Shown here: in pieces, positions 2,293 to 13,998 of the stretch
Layout: every line of letters begins with the position of its first letter
Numbering within the stretch: position 1 is the stretch's first letter
From: a virus
Strand: one strand, 5' to 3'
Length of the DNA: 25,110 nt
IMG/VR virus record: IMGVR_UViG_3300034104_003078
Span: 1 to 25,110 of that record
Translations under genes and position numbers: made by a program
Notes under the pieces: generated by a model
What the model saw: only the letters and a program-made list of their open reading frames with translations
What the model was told of the DNA's origin: nothing
Database searches by the model: none

Positions 2293-2748
2293 TTATGGAT
2301 CAGGTTTTAGATAAAGAGTATAAAATTGATTATCAAATAGTCCATGACCTCTAAAAGCTGAATTGAGAACGAATCTCTTACCATCTAAATCTATTCTTTT
2401 AGCATCTTTTATATATTCATAATCTGCGGCAGTTATTTTTAATCTAACACTGCCAACTACAGCTTCAAGCTTGATTTGTGTATTAAGTTGACCTTCACTC
2501 CAATATTGTTTTTGGAAATCGTTGTTGTATAAAATTCTAGCTTTAAATGTCTGATAAACAGGTGTATTTATATATGAAGTCGTTTGACCAGCAGTATTAT
2601 ATAATGGATTAAAGTTGGGATCTGTAATAATAACTACTTTAGATGCATCTTTAAAAACCGTGATGTCGCGAGCAAAAGTCTCATGAACATCCGCAATAAC
2701 TGCGTTTAAAGCAGTTTTTTCAGAAGCAGTTAATAAACTCGTAGCCAT
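2293..2748 (-). CDS. Head-closure (stopper)-like protein (putative)
   Basis: This 151-aa protein has an N-terminal helix (residues 1-30) followed by a beta-rich body. The last 50 residues follow the pattern of small phage stopper/head-completion proteins: LKITAADYEYIKDAKRIDLDGK, then a strand, then GLFDNQFYTLYLKP, that is, an 'x is the value, set by dG, then final strand with L' beta-barrel ending. It is the first gene of the leftward operon and is followed by a gp10-like and a terminator-like gene, which supports a role in closing the portal and docking the tail. The ATG at 2748 directly follows a TGTAAATATATTT element on the minus strand. No Shine-Dalgarno sequence is visible. Confidence 0.65.
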   Translation of the reverse strand: MATSLLTASEKTALNAVIADVHETFARDITVFKDASKVVIITDPNFNPLYNTAGQTTSYINTPVYQTFKARILYNNDFQKQYWSEGQLNTQIKLEAVVGSVRLKITAADYEYIKDAKRIDLDGKRFVLNSAFRGHGLFDNQFYTLYLKPDP

Positions 2749-2753
2749 AAATA

Positions 2754-2761
2754 TATTTACA
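2754..2761 (-). promoter_or_regulatory. TGTAAATA element, candidate promoter of leftward neck/tube operon
   Basis: On the minus strand TGTAAATA lies 5 nt before the ATG at 2748. The wider context, GTGTAAATATATTTATGGC, is nearly identical to the sequence before the tape measure start at 4585, which differs by one extra T. It resembles T4-type late promoters (TATAAATA). If it is a -10-type element, transcription would start at or next to the start codon, giving a leaderless or near-leaderless mRNA. Alternatively it is an A/U-rich translation-initiation element. Confidence 0.4.
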
Positions 2762-2765
2762 CTAG

Positions 2766-2794
2766 TTGAAAAACGATAGAATATATATTATTAT
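2766..2794 (+). promoter_or_regulatory. Possible sigma70-like promoter for chaperone/tape-measure operon
   Basis: TTGAAA (2766-2771) and TATTAT (2789-2794) are spaced by 17 bp on the plus strand, upstream of the ATG at 2804. The implied start of transcription would be within a few bases of the ATG. The region is so AT-rich that a chance match is quite likely. Some promoter is expected here because the 55-bp gap divides two divergent operons. Confidence 0.25.
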
Positions 2795-2799
2795 TTATA
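2792..2799 (-). promoter_or_regulatory. TATAAATA motif (T4-late-promoter-like), minus strand
   Basis: A perfect TATAAATA reads leftwards, 43 nt upstream of the ATG at 2748. T4-like late promoters consist of this octamer with transcription starting a few bases downstream, which here would leave a leader of about 35-40 nt for the stopper-like gene. The same octamer occurs before the L-like gene at 22245. Confidence 0.35.
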
Positions 2800-2803
2800 A
2801 AGT

Positions 2804-3583
2804 ATGGCTAAAGTTCTATATAGTTTTACAATTAAAAAGATTACAGAAGTAGAAGAGGAAAAGCAAGAAATCGTAAAAAACGATAATGGCGAAGACGTAA
2901 CTAGAACTTATAAAGAGAAGATTAAGAAAGAAGTTCCAGTAGAAATTATAGTCAATCAGCCAAACAGAAAACAAATGCAAGAAGCCGACATGGAATTCAG
3001 CGTTGAGATGAGCCGCTGTATTAGAAATGGCGTATTGACAAAAGCTATGTTGCTCAATAAATATAATGATACAGGCGGATTGATCAGTGAGGCTGATGCA
3101 AAGACAATGGTAAATTCAGCAGATGATATCCGCGAACTTCAAGCCAAACTAAGCATTCTTAATCTAAAACCAGAATCAGAAAGAGATGAAGAAGATAAGT
3201 TGAAGATCGATACGATCACTTCTCAAATTCTACAACGTAGAAAAACTCTTATAGAAAAAGAAACCAGTTATTTAACTCTATTTAATCATACAGCAGATAT
3301 CAAGGCTCAGAACAGAGCTATTTTGTGGTATGTATTACATTTAAGTTATTATAAAGATTCTTCAAAAAAGAATGTGGAACTAGAGCCGCTTTTCCCCGGT
3401 AAAACTTTTGAACAAAAAGAAGCCACAATGTTTGATCATGAAGAGAATAAGCATGAAATTTATGAAAAGTGTTATAGCAAGTTAGCTAGTATTATTAGTT
3501 ATTGGTTCTTCACCAGCAATCAAGATAAAGACGAATTCGATAGAATTGTGGGAGAAATAGATGGAACAATCCCAACAGAATAA
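2804..3583 (+). CDS. Tail assembly chaperone-like protein 1 (G-like by position)
   Basis: This 259-aa soluble, charged protein has no membrane segment. Residues 1-60 include a beta region with a highly charged EEEKQEI...TRTYKEKIKKEV insert. Residues 60-100 (MQEADMEFSVEMSRCIRNG, LTKAMLLNKYNDTGG) and the long Lys/Glu-rich helices at about 105-160 dominate the rest. It directly precedes another charged ORF and then the tape measure gene, which is where lambda G and GT tail assembly chaperones lie; these bind the tape measure and recruit tube subunits. The identity is inferred from position, composition and overlap. At 259 aa it is larger than the usual G-type protein of about 130-150 aa. It ends 23 nt inside the next ORF. 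Confidence 0.62.
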   Translation: MAKVLYSFTIKKITEVEEEKQEIVKNDNGEDVTRTYKEKIKKEVPVEIIVNQPNRKQMQEADMEFSVEMSRCIRNGVLTKAMLLNKYNDTGGLISEADAKTMVNSADDIRELQAKLSILNLKPESERDEEDKLKIDTITSQILQRRKTLIEKETSYLTLFNHTADIKAQNRAILWYVLHLSYYKDSSKKNVELEPLFPGKTFEQKEATMFDHEENKHEIYEKCYSKLASIISYWFFTSNQDKDEFDRIVGEIDGTIPTE

Positions 3584-4556
3584 TTTTAAAAGGATATTTC
3601 GGGATATTAAAAATGGATTCTCTGAGATAAAGATCTTGGAGAATCTTTTTTATTTGAAGCATATGTCTTTCGAAGACCAAGTTGATATTGACTTAGTTTA
3701 TGATAAATATTTAAGTCAAGCTATTAGCAAAGGCGTTCCAACGCATAAAGAAACTCTTGAAAGATTGATCGAAGAAGGCGAATGGTCTAAAAAGAAAGAA
3801 ACAGAAATAGCTCAACAAGAAGATTTTGTAAAGAATCTATTAAATCAAAAAAAGTCATTATATTTGAAAGCAGAAATTTTGCGCCTCAATAAAGATATTG
3901 AAGAAGGTCAAAATAAATTAAATAGTTTAAAAAATGCTAGAGCAATGTTTTTTTCTAGAACTGCGGAATCTTATGCTGAAGAAAGATTAAATGATCATTA
4001 TATTTTAAAGTGTTTATATAAGAATAAAAAATTAGAAGAACCAGTATATTCTGAAGAACAATTTGATGAAGTAGATTCTGAAAATCTATTTTTAATAATG
4101 AAAGAGTATACCCGTGTTTATAAAGAAATAAATGATGATAATATTCAACGAATTGTATTGCAAGATTTTTATAATTTATATTTACCATTTGCAGAGAGTC
4201 CTATTGAATTTTATGGAAAACCTATTTGTGATTTATCTTATAATCAGTTAAAATTATTAGTGTATTCACGATTCTTTAAAAATATATTTCAGCAGAATCA
4301 AAACATGCCTCAAGATATTAAAAACGATCCTGATAAAATCATGGATTATGTTAATGCTAATGAGAATGTTAAAAAAGTAAGAGAAAGAAATAGTAATAAA
4401 GAAAACTCCGCTGAATCTATTGTTGGAGCTACTAGAGAAGACCTTGAATATCTAAATATAGCCAAGCCGGGGCAAAAAACTCTATCGTTAGCTGAAGAAG
4501 CGAAGAAAAAAGGCGGCTCTCTTTCTATGGATGACATGATGAAATTATTCGGATAA
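3561..4556 (+). CDS. Tail assembly chaperone-like protein 2 (GT/T-like by position)
   Basis: This 331-aa, strongly charged, mostly helical protein contains a coiled-coil-like stretch at about 80-125 (Lys/Glu/Gln-rich). It ends with a disordered, Lys-rich tail finishing GGSLSMDDMMKLFG. Its ATG lies 23 nt before the upstream stop and immediately after an in-frame TAG (3558-3560), so it cannot be extended upstream. GGGAG at 3550-3554, 6 nt before the ATG, is the only plausible Shine-Dalgarno sequence in the window, though it is also coding sequence. The overlap is in the +1 (or -2) frame, unlike the -1 arrangement of lambda G-GT, so independent coupled initiation is simpler than frameshifting. 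A strong hairpin followed by six T lies at 3616-3651, inside its first 30 codons. Confidence 0.62.
   Translation: MEQSQQNNFKRIFRDIKNGFSEIKILENLFYLKHMSFEDQVDIDLVYDKYLSQAISKGVPTHKETLERLIEEGEWSKKKETEIAQQEDFVKNLLNQKKSLYLKAEILRLNKDIEEGQNKLNSLKNARAMFFSRTAESYAEERLNDHYILKCLYKNKKLEEPVYSEEQFDEVDSENLFLIMKEYTRVYKEINDDNIQRIVLQDFYNLYLPFAESPIEFYGKPICDLSYNQLKLLVYSRFFKNIFQQNQNMPQDIKNDPDKIMDYVNANENVKKVRERNSNKENSAESIVGATREDLEYLNIAKPGQKTLSLAEEAKKKGGSLSMDDMMKLFG
3616..3651 (+). terminator. Intragenic intrinsic-terminator-like hairpin
   Basis: Bases 3616-3628 can pair with 3633-3645 over 13 consecutive positions: 4 GC, 7 AT and 2 GT pairs, with a 4-nt AAAG loop (3629-3632). Six T follow directly (3646-3651). The shape is that of a Rho-independent terminator, but it lies in frame within the second chaperone ORF, upstream of the tape measure gene. 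It may act as an attenuator, an RNA-processing site or a translation-modulating structure, or it may be a coincidence of coding sequence. Confidence 0.4.
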
Positions 4557-4570
4557 TGTCGTATTTAAGG

Positions 4571-4578
4571 TGTAAATA
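4571..4578 (+). promoter_or_regulatory. TGTAAATA element before tape measure gene
   Basis: TGTAAATA lies 6 nt before the TMP ATG at 4585 in a 28-bp gap. The surrounding GTGTAAATATTATTTATGGC matches the element before the stopper-like gene on the other strand apart from one extra T. It is either a late-promoter-like element, giving a nearly leaderless TMP mRNA, or a conserved A/U-rich initiation context. Confidence 0.4.
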
Positions 4579-4584
4579 TTATTT

Positions 4585-7500
4585 ATGGCGGGACCACAAA
4601 TCAATGTTCAAGCTAACCAAGCAGCTTTAGTATCCTCTATTCAAGCGGGAATTACTGCTTACAACCAGCGTTTTGCGAATCAAAATCAAATCAATCTGCA
4701 AGTAAATGCCAGAGGATTTTCCCAACCATTGGGAAGAATAACTGGTGATGTAAAAGATTTCGAATCCGCATTGGCCGCGTCTAACGCTCGCGTAGTTGCA
4801 TTCGGAGCTTCTACAGCCGTGCTTGGTGGCGTAATAAGAAGTTTCAAAGAAATAGTAAATGTTACTATTGAAGTAGAAAAGAATCTTGCTGAAATTAATC
4901 GCGTATTCGGTTTAAGTACCGCTCAATTACAAAAATTTAGTTCTGCGCTTTTTGAAGTTAGCAAAGCCACATCATCTTCATTCGGAGAAGCCTCAAAAGC
5001 TGCTCTTGAATTCTCTCGTCAAGGTATCAAGGCTGAAGAAGTTCTTCAAAGAACAACTGATGCTCTTTTATTAGCAAAATTAGGCGGACTAAGTACTGCA
5101 AACGCTATTGATGCGTTGACCGCTTCTGTAAATGGATTTAAAAATACAGGTATAACTACTACTCAAATTTTAAATAAGTTAGTAGCAGTAGAACAAAACT
5201 ACGCTGTTGGTGCTGGTGACCTTGCTGAAGCTCTATCTCGTACAGGTCAGGCTGCACAAGAAGCTGGAGTGAATATTGATCAATTGAATGCCTTAGTTAC
5301 AGCGGCTCAAGAAAAAACCGCTCGCGGTGGTGCTGTAATTGGTAACGCTTTAAAAACAATTTTTACTCGTTTACAACGTCCAGAAACTTTAGATCAATTA
5401 GAAACGTTTAATATTAAAGTTCGCGACATCGAAGGAAATGTATTGCCAGCTATTACAATACTTAAAAACTTTTCAAGTGTTTATGGAGAATTGGCTGATA
5501 CACAACGCGCTGCGCTTTCAGAACAAGTTGCTGGTGTTTATCAAGTTAACATTCTTAAAGCTATAGTAGGTGATTTGAGTAGCGAACAAAGTGCGTACAA
5601 TGGAGCATTAAGAGATGGAACTAATGCTACAAATGAAGCTCAAGTAGCTGCCGCTAAACTTAATCAGACTTTAGATGCCTTAGTATCTCAAACGGGAACT
5701 GCTGCACAACAGTTTGCTAATAATATTGGTCAAGTAACTTTTGAACCATTAGCTAAATATACCGCTCAGACATTTAAATCAATTTTTGAAAATTTAAACG
5801 ATCTATTAGAAGGCGAAGGAATTGGATCTGTATTTGCTAATGGATTTTTGAAAGGAATCAGAAATATAATTGCTGGTCCCGGCGCAATTGCTGCATTTTA
5901 TACATTATTTAAGTTAATACAAAACTCTTTTAACTTCTTAACTCAGGCTTTGCCTCAGATTGCGGGTATTACTACAGAGTCTCAAAAGAGAAAAGATATT
6001 GAGGCTAGTGTTCTAAGAATATTACAACAAGAAGGTCCCTTAAGACAAGCTTTATTGGGTTATACTGGTAATCAGGCTGCACAAGCTCAATTATTATTAA
6101 ATGCTGCTAAAGCTCAAACAGCAGAATATCAACAACAATTACAAATCGCTCAAAGATTAGCTCCATTATTAGCTACTAAAGGCGTTGTTGTTAATCCAAA
6201 ATCTGGACAAAAAGGACTTGCTGCGACAAGAAGTTCTGGATATATACCAAAAATTACTAAGATGGCTGAAACTATCGGCGCACAAGCTGGTGGTTATTCT
6301 CCCGGTCAAGTTGTTCGTTCTCCTGTTGGTGGAGTAATGAATACCGCAGAAGATGTAAAATATATTCCCGGTTTTGCTCAACCTTTTATTAATCCTCCCG
6401 CTAGATCAAAAGCTGGTCGCGCTCACAGACAAAGATCAATACAACAAACTGGTGTTGATCCATATATGGCAGCTAAAGGATTTGTTCCTAATTTTGCTGC
6501 TGGGATTGATTTAGGTGCAAGAGGAAAACAATTTGAAAAATTAATAAATTATTATTTAACTAATTCAGAATCATACGCAGGACCTGCTTTATTAGATTTT
6601 CCATATCCAAATAATTCGATCACTTCAGCTTCTTCACAAGATAAAGCTAAAATAGCTTTAAATGATGACACTGTTTTTGGAGATGCTAAAATTACATCTG
6701 CTCTTTACAGTAGAAAAGATTTAATTAAAAAATTAGTAGGCTCTTTAAATACTAGTGCTTATAAAAAAATAATTAATAAAGCAAATACAACAAAATCAGA
6801 TTATGTTAATTTAAATTCTTATTTGCCAGTAAAACCATCTTTGATTTCAAGCAAAGCATCCGTTACTCCTGATCAAGTAAATGCAAAAGCATCTGCGGAA
6901 TTAGGAGGAGATGTAGTATTAAATCTAGCTCGTTTATTTAATAATCCAGTTACAGATACTTTAACATCAGACGGATTTCATAAAAGACTATTATTAAATT
7001 ATATTGAAGATTATGTAACTATACCTAACTTTTCGAGTTCTGGTTTTATTCCTAATTTTTCTCCAATAATAGATGATAATTATTTTGATAAACATGCATT
7101 TCCCGGCGGAACAGCAATCGGACCTGTCCCTGATAAAGCTATACAAAATATAATAGATAGGCAAAAGAAACGTCAAATGACGTATTTAGATTTTGATAGA
7201 ACATTGGTAAGAACTGTTGGTGACATAGCTTATGCTAAAGCTTCTCCAGAAAATAAAAAAGGCGTTTTGCAAAAAATGTTTTTAAATCAAGAAGCTAGAT
7301 TAAATGATGTCAAATCATCTAAGCTTACTCAGTTTGGTCAATTATTGCGTCAGAAGATACAAGAAAAAGTAATTGATCCAAATTTACTTGGATTAATGAC
7401 GGCTTCTGATGAAACTCCCGGTATGCCAGAATATATATCTAGAATTTGGAGTATACCAAAAATAAATCAAATTTATTCAGCAAAACCCGGTACAAAAGAA

Positions 7501-10500
7501 GCTAGATTAGCCAGTATGGGTATTTCAGCTAGTGGGTTTATTCCTAATTTCGCTGAAATGTCTATGTCTCAAATTGCCGCCGCCGTTCGTTTGGGAAAAA
7601 TGAGCGAAGCTGATGCAAGAAAAATGGGTTGGAAGCCTACATCTGAAAAAATTGCTGAAAGAAAAGGAAGAGTCGCGCAAGAAAAATCTGATAAATTAGC
7701 AGGTATTAGTTATAAGAATATTGATGTTCCTTGGAAAACTTATGATGAGTTCGGAGGAACAAATTATGATTATGGCGCTGCTTATGAAAAGCATGCTTTA
7801 AGCGTTTTAAAAGCAAAATATCCTACAATTCAGGATGCTATTTCTGCTGGTATTCCCGGTGGTCCAAGTTCAAGAGTTGACGCTTTAGATAAAACAACAA
7901 AAACATTTTTTGAGTTCAAAGGCGGCGATCCAACAACTCCTGCCGAATTGATGGCTAAATTTAAAGGAGTAAGAGTTCAGCTTGTTGACAAATATCGAAA
8001 AGAATTAGATACATGGAATGACGTATTAGTGTCTAATCCTAATTGGGGATACTCACAAGGATTTATTCCTAATTTTTCAATAGGCGACAAAATGCGTAAA
8101 AGTATGCTTGCAAATAATTTGCGCCCAATTCTTTTTGATTTAGCAAATAATAAATATGGTTATTCTGGGCAGGATGGAAAAGAATATTTATACCATAAAG
8201 ATATATATAATAATAAATTAAAAACTAAAGGAGCAAATATTAATGATTTTGACTTTGCAGAACTTCCTAATTTGGTTAGAGGGTTTATATATCCTAATGG
8301 AAAAATACAATGGGATTATTCTGATAAACAACAAGAAGCTTTAAAAGATTCTAATATAAAAGCTAAAGTTTTGGCTAAACTTAATACAGCAAAACCTGAA
8401 CTAGCAATAGGAAAACCTAAAGTTCTAACTGATGTTCAAAGATTGAGAATGCAATTGGAAGCTCAAGGTGGAGCTTCAGATTATGCTAGAGGTTTTATAC
8501 CTAATTTTGCTGATCCAACAATTAAAACAAACAGTGGTAAAGATGCAATTGAATCTTTTTATCGTAAAGGTTCAGAAGTGGAAGGTAAAAAATTAACAGG
8601 TGGAGTTATAGCTTTTCCTGTTCCTCAAACTACAGATTTATATTCAGTTGGATCTTCTAGCGTAAATATTTCTGGTTCTGGATTTGGAGTTCCTTTGTAT
8701 GATGCGGTATTGGCTGAAGTATCAAAAAAAGGAGCATGGTTAACATCTGATAGAGAAACAGTTAGTGATAAGGCTAGAAGAATTTGGGACGGTTATAGAA
8801 AATTAAGGACAGGTGATGTAAAAAATAAAAAATTACCAATAAAAAATTGGTTTTTAGATCCCGCATTTAATAATGGTAGTTATGAATTTCCAATGAATCC
8901 ACAAGATTTATTAAAAAATAAATCTACATGGCCTTCTGAAAACGATCCTGTTTGGGCTTTACAGCACGCTTATCAATTTAAAAAATCTCAATTAGATAGT
9001 TCTGTAAAAAATAAAATGGCATCTGGTTTTATACCTAACTTTGCGTATAAACAAGCAGTAATGGGATTAGAAGAAAGATTAAGTGGTAATAAAGCTATAT
9101 TAGATACTAGCACCGGACCTTTTCCGTTTATAAGAAACAGTGGTCAGCCTAATTTTGCTGCTGCCGTTGCAGATCATGGAGGCTTGACTCAAGCTTTGAC
9201 TGATTCGATGACAGGGCAAAAAGCTGCTGGTTTGATGTATGATGGTTATGTTCCTAATTTTGCAGATTTTCGTTCTTCTGGACCGATTAGACAAAGATCT
9301 GGAAGAATGGTGAGTAATAAACAAATTGATACAGCAATTGATAGTTATATAAAAAGCATAGATTTATTAACAACTAATAATTTTCAAATCAATGCAGCAG
9401 CACAACAGATATTAAAAAATTATAATTTGCAAGGTGCGGCTTTTAATAATTTGTTAAAACAAATAAAAGCTCATGCTAATGCAGAAAGAAGTGCTGCACA
9501 AGCCGCTCAACAGACTGCACAGGCTGCTCAACAAGCCGCAGCACAAAGACAAACTCAAGTTTCATCTAGATATCAAAGAAGATTTGGACCAGAAAGTGGT
9601 ACTATATTTCAAAGATTAGGAGGAGCTTTTGGAGGATTTTCTGGAAGACAAAGAGCGGGAAATTTAGAAGGTAGACTTGGAGGATTAAGTAATAATATAG
9701 GATTTCAATTGGCAGCACCAATTGTTGGAGGTGTTTTAGAGGAAGCTATCACACAAGGTAAAGATAGAAGTCAATTATCTACAACACAAAGATTTGCAGG
9801 AAATGCAGCTAGTTCTGTAATAACTGGCATGAGTACTGGAGCCGCTTTAGGAACAGCTTTTGGTGGACCGGGAATAGGAACTGCTATTGGTGCTGTAATT
9901 GGTTTAGGTAATGCCGCTATTCAAGCTCAAGATAGCGTACAAGATTTAGCAAATGCAGCAGATCAATATAAAGCTCAAACAACGGCTACTTTAGATGCTG
10001 GCAAATCTTATATTGAGCAGTTGAATCAGTTGGCAAGTATATCTGATCCATCATTACTAAATCAAGCTACATATAAATTATCTGAAACATTTCAGGAATT
10101 AAATAAAACTTCTCCAGAACTTGGGAAAAAATTTTATGAAGCAGGTGGAGATGTAGAAAAAATGCAAACAGCAATGCAAGAATTTGCAAAAAATGCTGCG
10201 TTAATTTCTAATATTAAAAAATTAGGAGCTTCATATAAAGAAGCAGGAGATGCTTTATCTGTAATAGTTCCAAAAAGGAGTGAACAATTAAAGAGAAAAG
10301 GATATAATGTCGAAAATCAAAGCGGAGAAATAAAAACTACAGAAGGTAGTTTGCAGACTTCCTTTGTTCAATTTCAAGGATTTTTTGATCTATTAAAAGA
10401 AGGTGGATTGAGTGCAGAGAATTCTGCAAAATTCATTGAAGAATTTCAAAAAGAAATGCAAGGCGCTACAGATGAAACCACTCTTAAAGCAATTGCTCAA

Positions 10501-13500
10501 AAATATAATATATCTGAAACGGTTGCTGCTGAATTAGCTGCATTATCAGATAATGTCATTGATGAAATGGGTATTGAAGGAGATTTTTTTGTTAAAAATA
10601 GCGCTGTTTTAGTTAAAAAATTCTATGATGAAACAGATAAAAAATTTAAAACAGCTACTCAACAAGCTAAAGAAGTACAATTTAACTCGCGTGAATTGTT
10701 GCGTAAATTGCGTGATGGTATAGATAATTATGTTTTTAATATAGCAAAACAAATTCAACAAAAAGAGTTTGAAGCGTCACGTTTAAATGTTTTAGATAAT
10801 GCGGCAAGTGAATTTATAGATAAATTAGTTACTCCTCTTCAGGCTGGAGCTAGACAAGCAGAAGCAAAAATACGTCAAACTTCTATTTCTCAAGAAACAG
10901 AAAGAATGCGTTTATCTTCTGATATAGCTGGAGCATCTGGAAAACAGATTTTTGAAACATTGGGTGGCGGAAATAAACAAGTAATTGAGGGTCTACAAAA
11001 AACAGTAGATAATTTACAAGATCCAAATCTTCTAGAAGGTACATTAAAAACATTAATTCAACAAACTTCTTCTGCACAAGCTGCACAACAAGCTGGTTTT
11101 AAAGTTGGTGATCCAGAAAAATTGGCGACATTTAATGCCCAATTAAAACAACAGTTGCAAAATACTATCATGCTTTCTGAAAAACAAAAACAACAGCTTG
11201 AAATACAAAATCTTGAATTAGAACTTTTAAATAGAAGATCTGAAGCTGCACAAGTTTTATTAGAGCTTGAGTTTCAACTAATAAATTCTGAACTTGAAAG
11301 AAATAAAGTTCTGAATAAGAGTGTTACTGATAATCAAATCAGAACAGCTAAAGAAAAAGCTATTTTTGAAAGACCCGGTTATGGATTTGGAATGTCGCCT
11401 ACTGGTATTCAAAGTCAAAAAGCTAATCAAGAAAGAGCTGCGTTACAAAGATCTCAAGCCATAGAAAGAGAAAAACTCTTTAGTGGTGGAGAAGATTTTT
11501 TCAAATCAAGAATAACAAAAGCTGTTGAAGATTTGAAATCAGCTAGATTAATTCAATCTAAAAATACTAATCCAATTGATGAGATAACTGGTGTTGCTAA
11601 TAAAGAAAATACTAAATACAATGCTTTACAACAAGCAGAAAATAAATTACAAGCTTTTTCAACAGGCCAAATAAAATCTGTAGACGATTATAAAAAGCGT
11701 CTTGAAGATTTGATGGGTGTATTAACTCCTGTATCGGATACTAATAAGCAGATATATGATGAGGTCGCTAAACAGTTAAAAGCCGTAAATGATTTGACAG
11801 AGGCGCAAAGATCAGAATCTAAAATATTAAATATTAATTTAGAAACTCAAAGGCTGCAAGCTCTTCAGGTTAGTCTTGCAAATAAATTTTATAATGAAAG
11901 ATTAGAAACTCTTCTAAAAACTGCCGATGCGGAGCAAAAGGCTGCTGACGCTTTGGAGGTGAGTTTACAAGCTTTAGATACAAGACAATCCAGAGAATCT
12001 AATTTTTATGGTCTTGGAGTAATGGGTAAAGCTGCAAATCAAGTAGATCTTAATAATCAAAGACTTGCGATACGTCAACAACAAACAACCCAACAAAGTC
12101 TTTCAGGAGCAAGAGGCGCAGTAAATGAGTTTGCAACATATCAAAATGAAATAGCAAATTTAAAAGGTCCTATAAGTCTAGATAGAGTAAAAGCAAAAAA
12201 TGCTATTGCTAATATTAATACTGAGATAAAAAATCTTGATGATGCTAAAGCTTTTGCTGATAATTTAGCAAAAGCCAGAACTTCTTTAGATTCTAGCTCT
12301 GAAGATGCTAAAAAACTTGCTGGTTTTGAAAATCAAGTAAGAGGGATTTTACAAAAAAACACTTCTGAACTTGAAAAACAAAAAGCAATTCAAGATCTTA
12401 TTAACAAAGGAGTAGCGGATGAAGCCACCGATAGAACTTCAATGTATCAAGGTTTCAGATCAGGTTTTGATAATTTAATTACACAAGGTGATGAAATAGG
12501 ACATAAGTTAGGCAAAGAAATTCCCGGTATGTTTGCTGATGGTATGACGAATGCATTAATGGATGTTGCTAGAGGAACAAAATCAATAGGTGACGCTTTC
12601 AAAGACGTTGCTATTAATTTTGGTCAAACATTAATGCAAGAAGTAATGAGAGCAGCTATTGGTAAAGCATTGGGAACCGTTGGTATGGGCTTGTTTGGTG
12701 GAAATCAAAAAGGCGGTTTGATTCATGCTCAAAATGGTATGTATATAAGCGGAGGAAGAAATGGCGACCGCAATCTTGCATTATTAGAAGATGGTGAATA
12801 TGTATTAAATAGAAATGCTGTAGAATCTTTTGGTGGCCCCGGCGTATTGGATAAAATCAATTATGATATGGCTCCAAGATTTGGCAGTAAAATGCAGGGT
12901 GGCGGATCTTTTGAGCTAGTTCCAGAAATGCAGTATAATAAAGATCAAGAATTTGATTATACTGGTAATCTAATGAGTGGCGCTACTAATGTTGGACAAA
13001 TTGATCAAGCTAATTATACAGCTTATGCATTTGCTGAAGATGCGTATTTCAAAAAAATGCGTGAAAAAGCAGTTCAAAATGAACAAGAAAGAGTACAAAA
13101 AGAATTCGCTAAAAAGCAAAAGAATGCTCAGTTAATTAGTAGTATAGTTGGTGCTGTTGGAAGCATAGCATTAGCTGGTGGTATGGGCATGGTAGCTGCT
13201 AAATCAGCGGCAAGTGCTGGTGCTGAAGGTTTAAAACAGGCAGGTGCAGCGTCTGTTAGTTCGTCAGCATCTGTCGCTACGAAAGAAGCGTTTGCAAAAG
13301 CTCAAGAAGCTGGAGGTAAAACTTTTGCTGAATTTTTAAAAGCTAATCCTAATGATGTTTTGATAAATGGTAAATTATTAGCTAATCTTAATGTTGCTAA
13401 TCAAATGGCAAGTGGTGTAAATCCTTTGAAAATATCTGGTGGATTTGGAAGATTTGGTGGCGATGCACAATTAAGCAATATATTGACTCAACAAGGTTTT

Positions 13501-13998
13501 GGCCCAGTAAAATCTGGAACTTCTGGTTTATTTGGTAATATATTTACAACTGGAGCGGGAGTTGTTGGAAGTAACGTAAGAAGAGGTCGTCAAACTGGTG
13601 GTTTGATTGGATTTAATAGTGGTGGATTTGTTCCTTATGGTTCTAGATTATCAGATACGATTCCAGCGTTGTTAACTGGAGGTGAATATGTAATGAACAA
13701 TTCAGCAGTTAAAAAATATGGATTGTCTACAATGAACTCTATGAATTCTGGATCGTATCAAGACGGAGGTTCAACTGCAACTACGAACAATAGCACAAAT
13801 AATAATGCTACAAATATTTCTATCAATATTGATAAATCAGGTAAATCTGTTTATGGCGCAGACAGTTCTAGTTATGAAAAACAAGATATTGTATTGAGCA
13901 AACAAATGGCTAAACAAATTAATTCAGTTGTTTTGAAAACCATGTCTAATGAAAAACGTTACGGTGGTGAATTATATAAAAATCCATTAAGAAGCTAA
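4585..13998 (+). CDS. Giant tape measure protein with internal GFIPNF-linked cassette array
   Basis: This 3137-aa protein sets tail length and is carried inside the tube. Residues 40-395 match the TP901-type TMP core (RVFGLSTAQLQKFSSALFEV, SFGEASKAALEFSRQG, TARGGAVIGNALKTIFTRLQ). Residues 415-460 are hydrophobic. Residues 632-1560 hold seven G-[FY]-[IV]-P-N-F-[AS] motifs between segments of about 70-190 aa; one segment has HAD motifs (D869-F-D871-R-T873, T939) and another has D1099...E1110-F-K1112. A Gly/Ala-rich hydrophobic stretch is at about 1740-1780, and Gln/Glu/Lys-rich coiled coil runs through about 1950-2700. Near the C-terminus the TMP signature 'GG...G...D...lL..GEYV.N..AV' occurs twice (about 2710-2755 and 3005-3055). 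Arg codon use shifts from mainly CGN at the N-terminus to AGA in the cassette region. TAAAATG joins it to the next gene. Confidence 0.95.
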   Translation: MAGPQINVQANQAALVSSIQAGITAYNQRFANQNQINLQVNARGFSQPLGRITGDVKDFESALAASNARVVAFGASTAVLGGVIRSFKEIVNVTIEVEKNLAEINRVFGLSTAQLQKFSSALFEVSKATSSSFGEASKAALEFSRQGIKAEEVLQRTTDALLLAKLGGLSTANAIDALTASVNGFKNTGITTTQILNKLVAVEQNYAVGAGDLAEALSRTGQAAQEAGVNIDQLNALVTAAQEKTARGGAVIGNALKTIFTRLQRPETLDQLETFNIKVRDIEGNVLPAITILKNFSSVYGELADTQRAALSEQVAGVYQVNILKAIVGDLSSEQSAYNGALRDGTNATNEAQVAAAKLNQTLDALVSQTGTAAQQFANNIGQVTFEPLAKYTAQTFKSIFENLNDLLEGEGIGSVFANGFLKGIRNIIAGPGAIAAFYTLFKLIQNSFNFLTQALPQIAGITTESQKRKDIEASVLRILQQEGPLRQALLGYTGNQAAQAQLLLNAAKAQTAEYQQQLQIAQRLAPLLATKGVVVNPKSGQKGLAATRSSGYIPKITKMAETIGAQAGGYSPGQVVRSPVGGVMNTAEDVKYIPGFAQPFINPPARSKAGRAHRQRSIQQTGVDPYMAAKGFVPNFAAGIDLGARGKQFEKLINYYLTNSESYAGPALLDFPYPNNSITSASSQDKAKIALNDDTVFGDAKITSALYSRKDLIKKLVGSLNTSAYKKIINKANTTKSDYVNLNSYLPVKPSLISSKASVTPDQVNAKASAELGGDVVLNLARLFNNPVTDTLTSDGFHKRLLLNYIEDYVTIPNFSSSGFIPNFSPIIDDNYFDKHAFPGGTAIGPVPDKAIQNIIDRQKKRQMTYLDFDRTLVRTVGDIAYAKASPENKKGVLQKMFLNQEARLNDVKSSKLTQFGQLLRQKIQEKVIDPNLLGLMTASDETPGMPEYISRIWSIPKINQIYSAKPGTKEARLASMGISASGFIPNFAEMSMSQIAAAVRLGKMSEADARKMGWKPTSEKIAERKGRVAQEKSDKLAGISYKNIDVPWKTYDEFGGTNYDYGAAYEKHALSVLKAKYPTIQDAISAGIPGGPSSRVDALDKTTKTFFEFKGGDPTTPAELMAKFKGVRVQLVDKYRKELDTWNDVLVSNPNWGYSQGFIPNFSIGDKMRKSMLANNLRPILFDLANNKYGYSGQDGKEYLYHKDIYNNKLKTKGANINDFDFAELPNLVRGFIYPNGKIQWDYSDKQQEALKDSNIKAKVLAKLNTAKPELAIGKPKVLTDVQRLRMQLEAQGGASDYARGFIPNFADPTIKTNSGKDAIESFYRKGSEVEGKKLTGGVIAFPVPQTTDLYSVGSSSVNISGSGFGVPLYDAVLAEVSKKGAWLTSDRETVSDKARRIWDGYRKLRTGDVKNKKLPIKNWFLDPAFNNGSYEFPMNPQDLLKNKSTWPSENDPVWALQHAYQFKKSQLDSSVKNKMASGFIPNFAYKQAVMGLEERLSGNKAILDTSTGPFPFIRNSGQPNFAAAVADHGGLTQALTDSMTGQKAAGLMYDGYVPNFADFRSSGPIRQRSGRMVSNKQIDTAIDSYIKSIDLLTTNNFQINAAAQQILKNYNLQGAAFNNLLKQIKAHANAERSAAQAAQQTAQAAQQAAAQRQTQVSSRYQRRFGPESGTIFQRLGGAFGGFSGRQRAGNLEGRLGGLSNNIGFQLAAPIVGGVLEEAITQGKDRSQLSTTQRFAGNAASSVITGMSTGAALGTAFGGPGIGTAIGAVIGLGNAAIQAQDSVQDLANAADQYKAQTTATLDAGKSYIEQLNQLASISDPSLLNQATYKLSETFQELNKTSPELGKKFYEAGGDVEKMQTAMQEFAKNAALISNIKKLGASYKEAGDALSVIVPKRSEQLKRKGYNVENQSGEIKTTEGSLQTSFVQFQGFFDLLKEGGLSAENSAKFIEEFQKEMQGATDETTLKAIAQKYNISETVAAELAALSDNVIDEMGIEGDFFVKNSAVLVKKFYDETDKKFKTATQQAKEVQFNSRELLRKLRDGIDNYVFNIAKQIQQKEFEASRLNVLDNAASEFIDKLVTPLQAGARQAEAKIRQTSISQETERMRLSSDIAGASGKQIFETLGGGNKQVIEGLQKTVDNLQDPNLLEGTLKTLIQQTSSAQAAQQAGFKVGDPEKLATFNAQLKQQLQNTIMLSEKQKQQLEIQNLELELLNRRSEAAQVLLELEFQLINSELERNKVLNKSVTDNQIRTAKEKAIFERPGYGFGMSPTGIQSQKANQERAALQRSQAIEREKLFSGGEDFFKSRITKAVEDLKSARLIQSKNTNPIDEITGVANKENTKYNALQQAENKLQAFSTGQIKSVDDYKKRLEDLMGVLTPVSDTNKQIYDEVAKQLKAVNDLTEAQRSESKILNINLETQRLQALQVSLANKFYNERLETLLKTADAEQKAADALEVSLQALDTRQSRESNFYGLGVMGKAANQVDLNNQRLAIRQQQTTQQSLSGARGAVNEFATYQNEIANLKGPISLDRVKAKNAIANINTEIKNLDDAKAFADNLAKARTSLDSSSEDAKKLAGFENQVRGILQKNTSELEKQKAIQDLINKGVADEATDRTSMYQGFRSGFDNLITQGDEIGHKLGKEIPGMFADGMTNALMDVARGTKSIGDAFKDVAINFGQTLMQEVMRAAIGKALGTVGMGLFGGNQKGGLIHAQNGMYISGGRNGDRNLALLEDGEYVLNRNAVESFGGPGVLDKINYDMAPRFGSKMQGGGSFELVPEMQYNKDQEFDYTGNLMSGATNVGQIDQANYTAYAFAEDAYFKKMREKAVQNEQERVQKEFAKKQKNAQLISSIVGAVGSIALAGGMGMVAAKSAASAGAEGLKQAGAASVSSSASVATKEAFAKAQEAGGKTFAEFLKANPNDVLINGKLLANLNVANQMASGVNPLKISGGFGRFGGDAQLSNILTQQGFGPVKSGTSGLFGNIFTTGAGVVGSNVRRGRQTGGLIGFNSGGFVPYGSRLSDTIPALLTGGEYVMNNSAVKKYGLSTMNSMNSGSYQDGGSTATTNNSTNNNATNISINIDKSGKSVYGADSSSYEKQDIVLSKQMAKQINSVVLKTMSNEKRYGGELYKNPLRS
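6478..9264 (+). repeat. GFIPNF(A/S) motif array within the tape measure gene
   Basis: Seven intact copies of a 7-residue motif start at TMP residues 632, 820, 984, 1159, 1303, 1481 and 1554. Degenerate relatives are at 552 (GYIPKI), 593 (YIPGFA), 813 (IPNFS) and 1520 (GQPNFA). Spacing between intact copies is 188, 164, 175, 144, 178 and 73 residues. No two of the seven copies I read are identical at the DNA level (GGA/GGT/GGG, ATT/ATA/GTT, AAT/AAC, TTT/TTC vary), and the sequences between them are not similar overall. The protein motif therefore appears to be under selection, rather than being a recent DNA duplication. Confidence 0.9.

Follow-up and report, generated by a model that had tools for sequence, protein, structure and literature searches.

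Tape measure proteins (TMPs) set the length of the phage tail and normally leave the tail ahead of the DNA at infection. Outside phages, swappable effector modules are carried in a conserved delivery backbone by the MARTX and polymorphic toxins. An enzymatic domain inside the TMP is found in the mycobacteriophage TM4 Mt3 and SPbeta-type transglycosylase TMPs, and the embedded domain of TM4 is dispensable and helps infection (PMC1796659). Repeated units that are gained and lost within TMPs are known from the 11-residue repeat TMPs (Belcaid et al. 2011, PMC3271669). Polyvalent proteins of phages and conjugative elements combine several effector-like domains in one polypeptide, believed to accompany the DNA on delivery (Iyer et al. 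2017, PMC5512222). The contractile injection effectors Sle1 and Tme are TMP-like cargo proteins with an exchangeable functional domain (PMC13277306), and a 2023 survey of mosaicism in phage proteins could confirm no genuine recent mosaicism in TMPs (PMC10684548). Here we describe a stretch of 25,110 nucleotides (nt) of viral DNA, positions 1 to 25,110 of IMG/VR record IMGVR_UViG_3300034104_003078 (hereafter the window), in which the TMP gene holds an array of exchangeable cassettes, each bounded by a short motif that is conserved at the protein level.

The 3137-amino-acid (aa) open reading frame (ORF) of the window is a TMP, both by family homology and by its position before the minor tail genes, as an earlier reading made from the letters of the window without database searches (the sequence-only reading) had proposed. 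Residues 124-317 match PhageMin_Tail (PF10145, E 5.8e-26 in Pfam), and many PHROG tape-measure families match the protein, the best at E 4.9e-48. Lambda-type minor tail genes (Phage_min_tail, 1.8e-12; Phage_tail_L, 2.8e-36) and a tail assembly protein gene (PHROG 32, 5.4e-25) lie downstream. Seven copies of G[FY][IV]PNF[AS], all in frame, punctuate residues 632-1560 at spacings of 188, 164, 175, 144, 178 and 73 residues, in agreement with the residues and the range of spacings given in that reading, where the composition of the protein predicts 3.4e-5 copies. The parts of the gene are as follows; numbers beginning with L denote related loci.

4585..13998, + strand: TMP gene, ORF of 3137 aa; PF10145 and PHROG TMP matches, lambda-like tail genes downstream
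4585..6477, + strand: N-terminal TMP backbone, residues 1-631; common to the whole family at 33-99% identity
6478..6498, + strand: motif copy 1, GFVPNFA; the DNA match to L006 stops exactly here
6496..7041, + strand: cassette 1, 182 aa; PD-(D/E)XK-like signature GxxFE...LLDFP...GDAK; relatives in L080, L104, L243 and L244; no Pfam match
7042..7062, + strand: motif copy 2, GFIPNFS, from the motif scan
7060..7533, + strand: cassette 2, 158 aa; HAD-phosphatase-like motifs I (YLDFDRTL) and II (MTAS)
7534..7554, + strand: motif copy 3, GFIPNFA; a DNA match to L006 starts here
7552..8058, + strand: cassette 3, 169 aa; PD-(D/E)XK-like signature YEKHA...RVDALD...FEFKGG; 98% identical in L006, 83% in L161
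8059..8079, + strand: motif copy 4, GFIPNFS; the DNA match to L006 stops here
8077..8490, + strand: cassette 4, 138 aa; fold unknown; family also in L006, L013, L016 and L151
8491..8511, + strand: motif copy 5, GFIPNFA, from the motif scan
8509..9024, + strand: cassette 5, 172 aa; GNAT-like C-terminal pattern, by eye, GFGVPLY...WLTSDRETVSDKARRIW
9025..9045, + strand: motif copy 6, GFIPNFA; the DNA match to L006 picks up again here
9043..9243, + strand: conserved linker module of 67 aa at the end of the array; 43 homologs in relatives
9244..9264, + strand: motif copy 7, GYVPNFA, the final boundary, from the motif scan
9265..13998, + strand: C-terminal TMP backbone beyond the array; 79% identity with L006, 38% with L009

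Whole cassettes are gained, lost and swapped by recombination, with visible endpoints at the DNA that encodes the motif. Over their first 634 residues, the TMPs of the window and L006 share 99.4% identity, and they then carry seven and five motifs, respectively. Their arrays have in common only cassette 3 (98%) and the final linker (92%), besides a diverged relative of cassette 4; one of the five cassettes of the window and one of the three of L006 is shared. In ORF coordinates the DNA matches run up to nt 1923, from 2960 to 3501 and from 4449 to 4695, and the motifs start at 1903, 2959, 3484, 4450 and 4669. In L008 and L045 a 699-bp cassette, motif to motif, is 97% identical within a backbone that is 69% identical; one cassette has been cleanly gained or lost between L101 and L155 and between L175 and L194, and L013 and L016 form a further exchange pair. 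The counterpart of cassette 2 in the latter two is 85-87% identical, though the N-termini are 64% identical, and counterparts of cassette 5 are 70-97% identical in L097, L013, L167 and L115. Among DNA matches of at least 90% identity, 78% of 55 right ends fall 0-30 nt from a motif start (6.9% is the uniform expectation for this interval) and 80% of 44 left ends at -15 to 21 nt, in counts of high-scoring segment pair ends that are not independent, as the pairs share phylogeny. At 95% identity, 17/17 right ends and 10/11 left ends fall in these intervals.

The turnover is seen across the family. In 97 of the 104 TMP pairs whose N-termini share 85% identity or more, one or more cassettes have no homolog in the partner. 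With cassettes counted from 85 aa upwards and duplicates of the window removed, 332 cassettes fall into 115 families. Of these, 59 are singletons and 28 have three or more members, among which 19 occupy differing ranks in the array. The segments thus behave as exchangeable units with the motif as their exact boundary, as the sequence-only reading had supposed; multi-motif TMPs sought in metagenomic phages were found, with their segments swapped, and collinear, slowly diverging segments were looked for among the relatives and are not the pattern there. In our interpretation the breakpoints are sharp because crossovers elsewhere than at module boundaries do not survive; partial DNA identity (81-84%) at the boundaries may also help. 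In contrast to the 2023 survey, mosaicism in these TMPs is plain, exact and frequent.

Aligned over 621 contexts, the motif extends to A[AS]xG[FY][IV]PNFA in surroundings that are rich in G, K, S and A and probably flexible. Its residues are fixed while the codons vary freely, so selection on it acts at the protein level: the seven 21-mers of the window all differ, and 264 of 268 DNA copies across TMPs are distinct within their own gene. This variation, noted already in the sequence-only reading, argues against a DNA recombination or homing site, and the fixed DNA insertion target typical of homing elements was not found. A DNA-level recombination site was dismissed for lack of DNA conservation, recent tandem duplication because the codons differ, and chance because of the expectation of 3e-5. 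No complete non-TMP ORF of at least 200 aa in the loci examined contains the motif. A search for the motif string among open-licence papers returned no paper, and an earlier description outside these is possible.

Most cassettes are probably small enzymes, with PD-(D/E)XK nuclease-like ones the commonest. In the commonest (core) family, G, E, D, [DE] and K are fixed in 41/41 members, whose identity to a reference in a related alignment is otherwise 10-27%, and the order FE ... D ... [DE]xK is that of the PD-(D/E)XK nuclease active site. The strict signature occurs in 98/332 cassettes, compared with 3.8 in shuffles; 82 TMP records have it in one cassette and 8, the window among them, in two. 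The intervening segments, which had looked unrelated in the sequence-only reading, are not all so: cassettes 1 and 3 share this signature. Profile-profile support for membership of the core family is moderate for cassette 1, whose relatives match the core hidden Markov model (HMM) at 3e-6 to 2e-5, and weak for cassette 3. The link of cassette 3 to the core family therefore rests mainly on the shared signature and that of cassette 1 also on profiles; an iterated HMM search merged both with about 75 others, possibly by drift.

Cassettes of relatives match SNase (1.9e-9), GNAT (7.2e-8, in L077, L062 and L080) and a nucleotidyltransferase-associated region (3.4e-8) in Pfam. One is HATPase-like (3.8e-5) and several others have P-loop patterns. 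The sequence-only reading saw enzyme-like motifs in at least one segment; many cassettes are enzyme-like, by invariant residues, signature or Pfam domain. In L040 (5042-6751, - strand) a cassette of 570 aa combines the HATPase-like profile matches (3.8e-5) with a separate HExxH pattern. Peptidases were sought in the arrays: HExxH patterns occur in few relatives, with no Pfam peptidase match, and none was seen in the window. PADLOC and NCBIfam gave weak, scattered matches only on 123 cassettes. Relatives of window cassettes 1, 2 and 5 were seen only within such TMP arrays. That cassettes are under selection as functional domains is partly shown. The arrays also hold conserved linker modules of 60-84 aa, which likewise end in the motif. 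Those of L099 (5333-6715) and relatives read SEI..GALAGGY.PG...; AIGRE..AG...NPLGLGVYNTKDEP and have predicted helix-strand-helix folds (pLDDT, the predicted local distance difference test score, about 70-84).

A motif scan of viral contigs gave at least 119 stretches, nearly all of them within long TMP-like ORFs that have 2-8 motifs. A second search, in which selection did not depend on the motif, used an alignment of 36 N-terminal backbones and gave at least 548 viral stretches that encode members of this TMP family; among the best 80 of these, 77 have 2-9 motifs, two are truncated ORFs and the last, L207, has a single motif. The motif is absent from distant TMPs in Firmicutes genomes (L145, L146, L148-L150; about 26-31% identical). 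The array ranges from 84 to 1453 residues among relatives, and the N-terminal part is nearly constant. Members also occur in contigs binned with Neomarinimicrobiota, Halobacteriovorax, Flavobacteria and Verrucomicrobiales, a weak hint as to hosts. Two contigs of one Halobacteriovorax metagenome-assembled genome, L138 and L140 (34 kb and 72 kb), carry TMPs with identical eight-motif spacing. Among cultured phages, no TMP exceeds about 30% identity, and that over part of the N-terminus, and the cassettes are absent.

Two conserved ORFs, overlapping by 23 nt, directly precede the TMP gene.

2804..3583, + strand: conserved ORF of 259 aa, candidate tail assembly chaperone part 1; homologs directly upstream of the TMP in 97/131 loci
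3561..4556, + strand: conserved ORF of 331 aa, candidate tail assembly chaperone part 2; same placement in 101/131 loci

Neither matches Pfam or PHROGs; from their position they are possibly G/GT-like tail assembly chaperones of unusual size. Further upstream, at 851-2748 on the - strand, are three ORFs (286, 192 and 151 aa) without database matches; 58-71 loci have homologs of them upstream of the TMP, most often on the minus strand. The C-terminal region of the TMP (residues about 2710-3090) contains repeats of the form GG...GEYVLNRNAV and GGFVP...GEYVMNNSAV, with only a loose likeness to GFVPNF.

We propose, with a probability of roughly 0.6, that this lambda-type siphovirus TMP doubles as a modular injected cargo polypeptide in which the motif is a protein-level boundary signal. 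Its interchangeable cassettes, each flanked by A[AS]xG[FY][IV]PNFA, follow a conserved N-terminal third and precede a likewise conserved C-terminal part. As TMPs exit the tail ahead of the DNA, the array would most likely be injected as cargo for early infection, directed against host or competitor functions. In phage 80alpha the TMP is oriented with its N-terminus beside the DNA at the neck and its C-terminus at the tip (PMC11661146); by analogy the array would be head-proximal and exit late, just ahead of the DNA. The lambda TMP contacts inner membrane machinery during injection (PMC13190303), which, together with a head-proximal site, would place the array to reach the periplasm or cytoplasm first. 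It would thread the tube, be delivered, refold and act. The motif could be a cleavage signal, a docking signal for a chaperone or the tube, or an obligatory hinge that tolerates crossovers; in the docking variant, the candidate tail assembly chaperones (the 259/331-aa pair) would bind it.

Several results weigh against this proposal. All five cassettes of the window, like most cassette families, match no Pfam or PDB family. In cassette 2, HAD motifs I and II plus a lysine are seen by eye, the final acidic motif IV is not, and there is no Pfam or PDB match; for cassette 5, likewise without a match in either, the GNAT likeness is one of pattern. PDB sequence searches with cassettes 1-5 and the core profile gave no sensible match, and for cassette 4 none below E 0.25. 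AlphaFold2 models were of low confidence, with a mean pLDDT of 39.5 for window cassettes 2-6 (16 sequences) and of 55.2 for a linker-core-linker unit of L099 (21 sequences), and Foldseek searches of PDB and BFVD with the latter gave nothing below E 0.07. Only a small linker module, at a pLDDT near 80, was modelled well enough to interpret. With poor models and empty Foldseek searches, globular cassette folds are thus putative. In the pLDDT 55 model the core cassette has a helix-strand-helix-strand-helix order around the signature residues. An array of continuous coiled coil only was set aside, as catalytic signatures are present. The proposal also leaves unexplained how the tail tube would accommodate a folded domain, and the shared phylogeny behind the breakpoint counts likewise tells against it.

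Other explanations differ in what they ask of the cassettes. If the array mainly set tail length, with cassettes as tolerated inserts and the motif as a flexible joint duplicated along with them, the wide range of array lengths behind a nearly constant N-terminal part would fit, and insertions and deletions in TMPs do alter tail length in other phages (PMC1796659, PMC3271669). A filler role gives no reason for 115 families with complex sequences, whole cassettes conserved in diverged backbones, or specific catalytic signatures that are conserved, and we consider it improbable. Even less credible to us are in-frame selfish cassettes, whose nucleases would drive their own spread into motif sites, much as homing endonucleases do, without leaving the protein. 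Nuclease-like cassettes are indeed common, exchange boundaries are exact, and in L008/L045 a whole cassette with its motifs moved between diverged backbones; but the near-complete diversity of motif DNA leaves no fixed target, many cassettes are not nucleases, and free-standing copies are absent from the loci examined.

Unlikely, though less so than either of these, is a role of the cassettes as host-entry adaptors, binding variable periplasmic or inner-membrane proteins or dodging TMP-binding defences, and swapped as host-range determinants. At entry the lambda TMP contacts ManYZ and the defence nuclease SNIPE, and TMP regions decide which partner is used (PMC13190303); swapping among close relatives would also fit host or defence pressure. 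The enzyme-like residues would then be relics, which is hard to square with catalytic-type residues invariant in every one of the 41 otherwise dissimilar core cassettes and with clear SNase, GNAT and nucleotidyltransferase domains in relatives. Processing is nested within the cargo proposal and does not exclude it: a phage or host protease would cut the motif in the virion or on entry, making the TMP a true polyprotein. A short, exposed-looking, nearly invariant motif between every cassette pair suits this, as do the frequent processing of TMPs (PMC1796659) and the often fragmented 80alpha TMP on gels (PMC11661146). We nonetheless hold it to be doubtful, as no protease family was identified among the tail genes of the window and a cleavage site and a docking site look alike by sequence. 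The fullest form of the cargo proposal, short of even odds and offered tentatively, is that a large lineage of so far uncultured siphoviruses uses its TMP as a polyprotein magazine: each virion would inject a changeable set of enzymes, a PD-(D/E)XK-type nuclease usually among them, with a universal A[AS]xGF[IV]PNFA as the signal at which these are separated or docked and at which recombination reshuffles the set between phages.

If the cassettes are injected, they form a natural library of more than 100 mostly uncharacterised early-acting phage effectors, with boundaries ready for single expression, and give a concrete handle on the question of what portion of a TMP enters the cell, and in which form. 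Compared with the described systems, the TM4 and SPbeta-type TMPs have one fixed peptidoglycan domain, with no array, repeated boundary motif or cassette exchange; unlike those wall enzymes, the recognisable domains of the window family act on nucleic acids or small groups. The 11-residue repeats are short length units, whereas the cassettes here are distinct in sequence. Sle1 and Tme have a single C-terminal effector domain, belong to bacterial injection systems and lack a multi-cassette array. MARTX and polymorphic toxins are bacterial, with terminal or autoprocessed effectors and immunity genes, and are not phage tail tapes. The polyvalent proteins known from the available text of PMC5512222 are not TMPs, no tape measures appearing there; no uniform boundary motif is described in it, and release is ascribed to built-in peptidases. 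A multi-effector character like theirs is possible for the window family, in which several cassettes are enzyme-type by profile or signature, none of those in the window having a Pfam match. A motif-delimited, exchangeable array within a TMP is a combination without precedent among the open-licence papers searched, though each of its elements has one.

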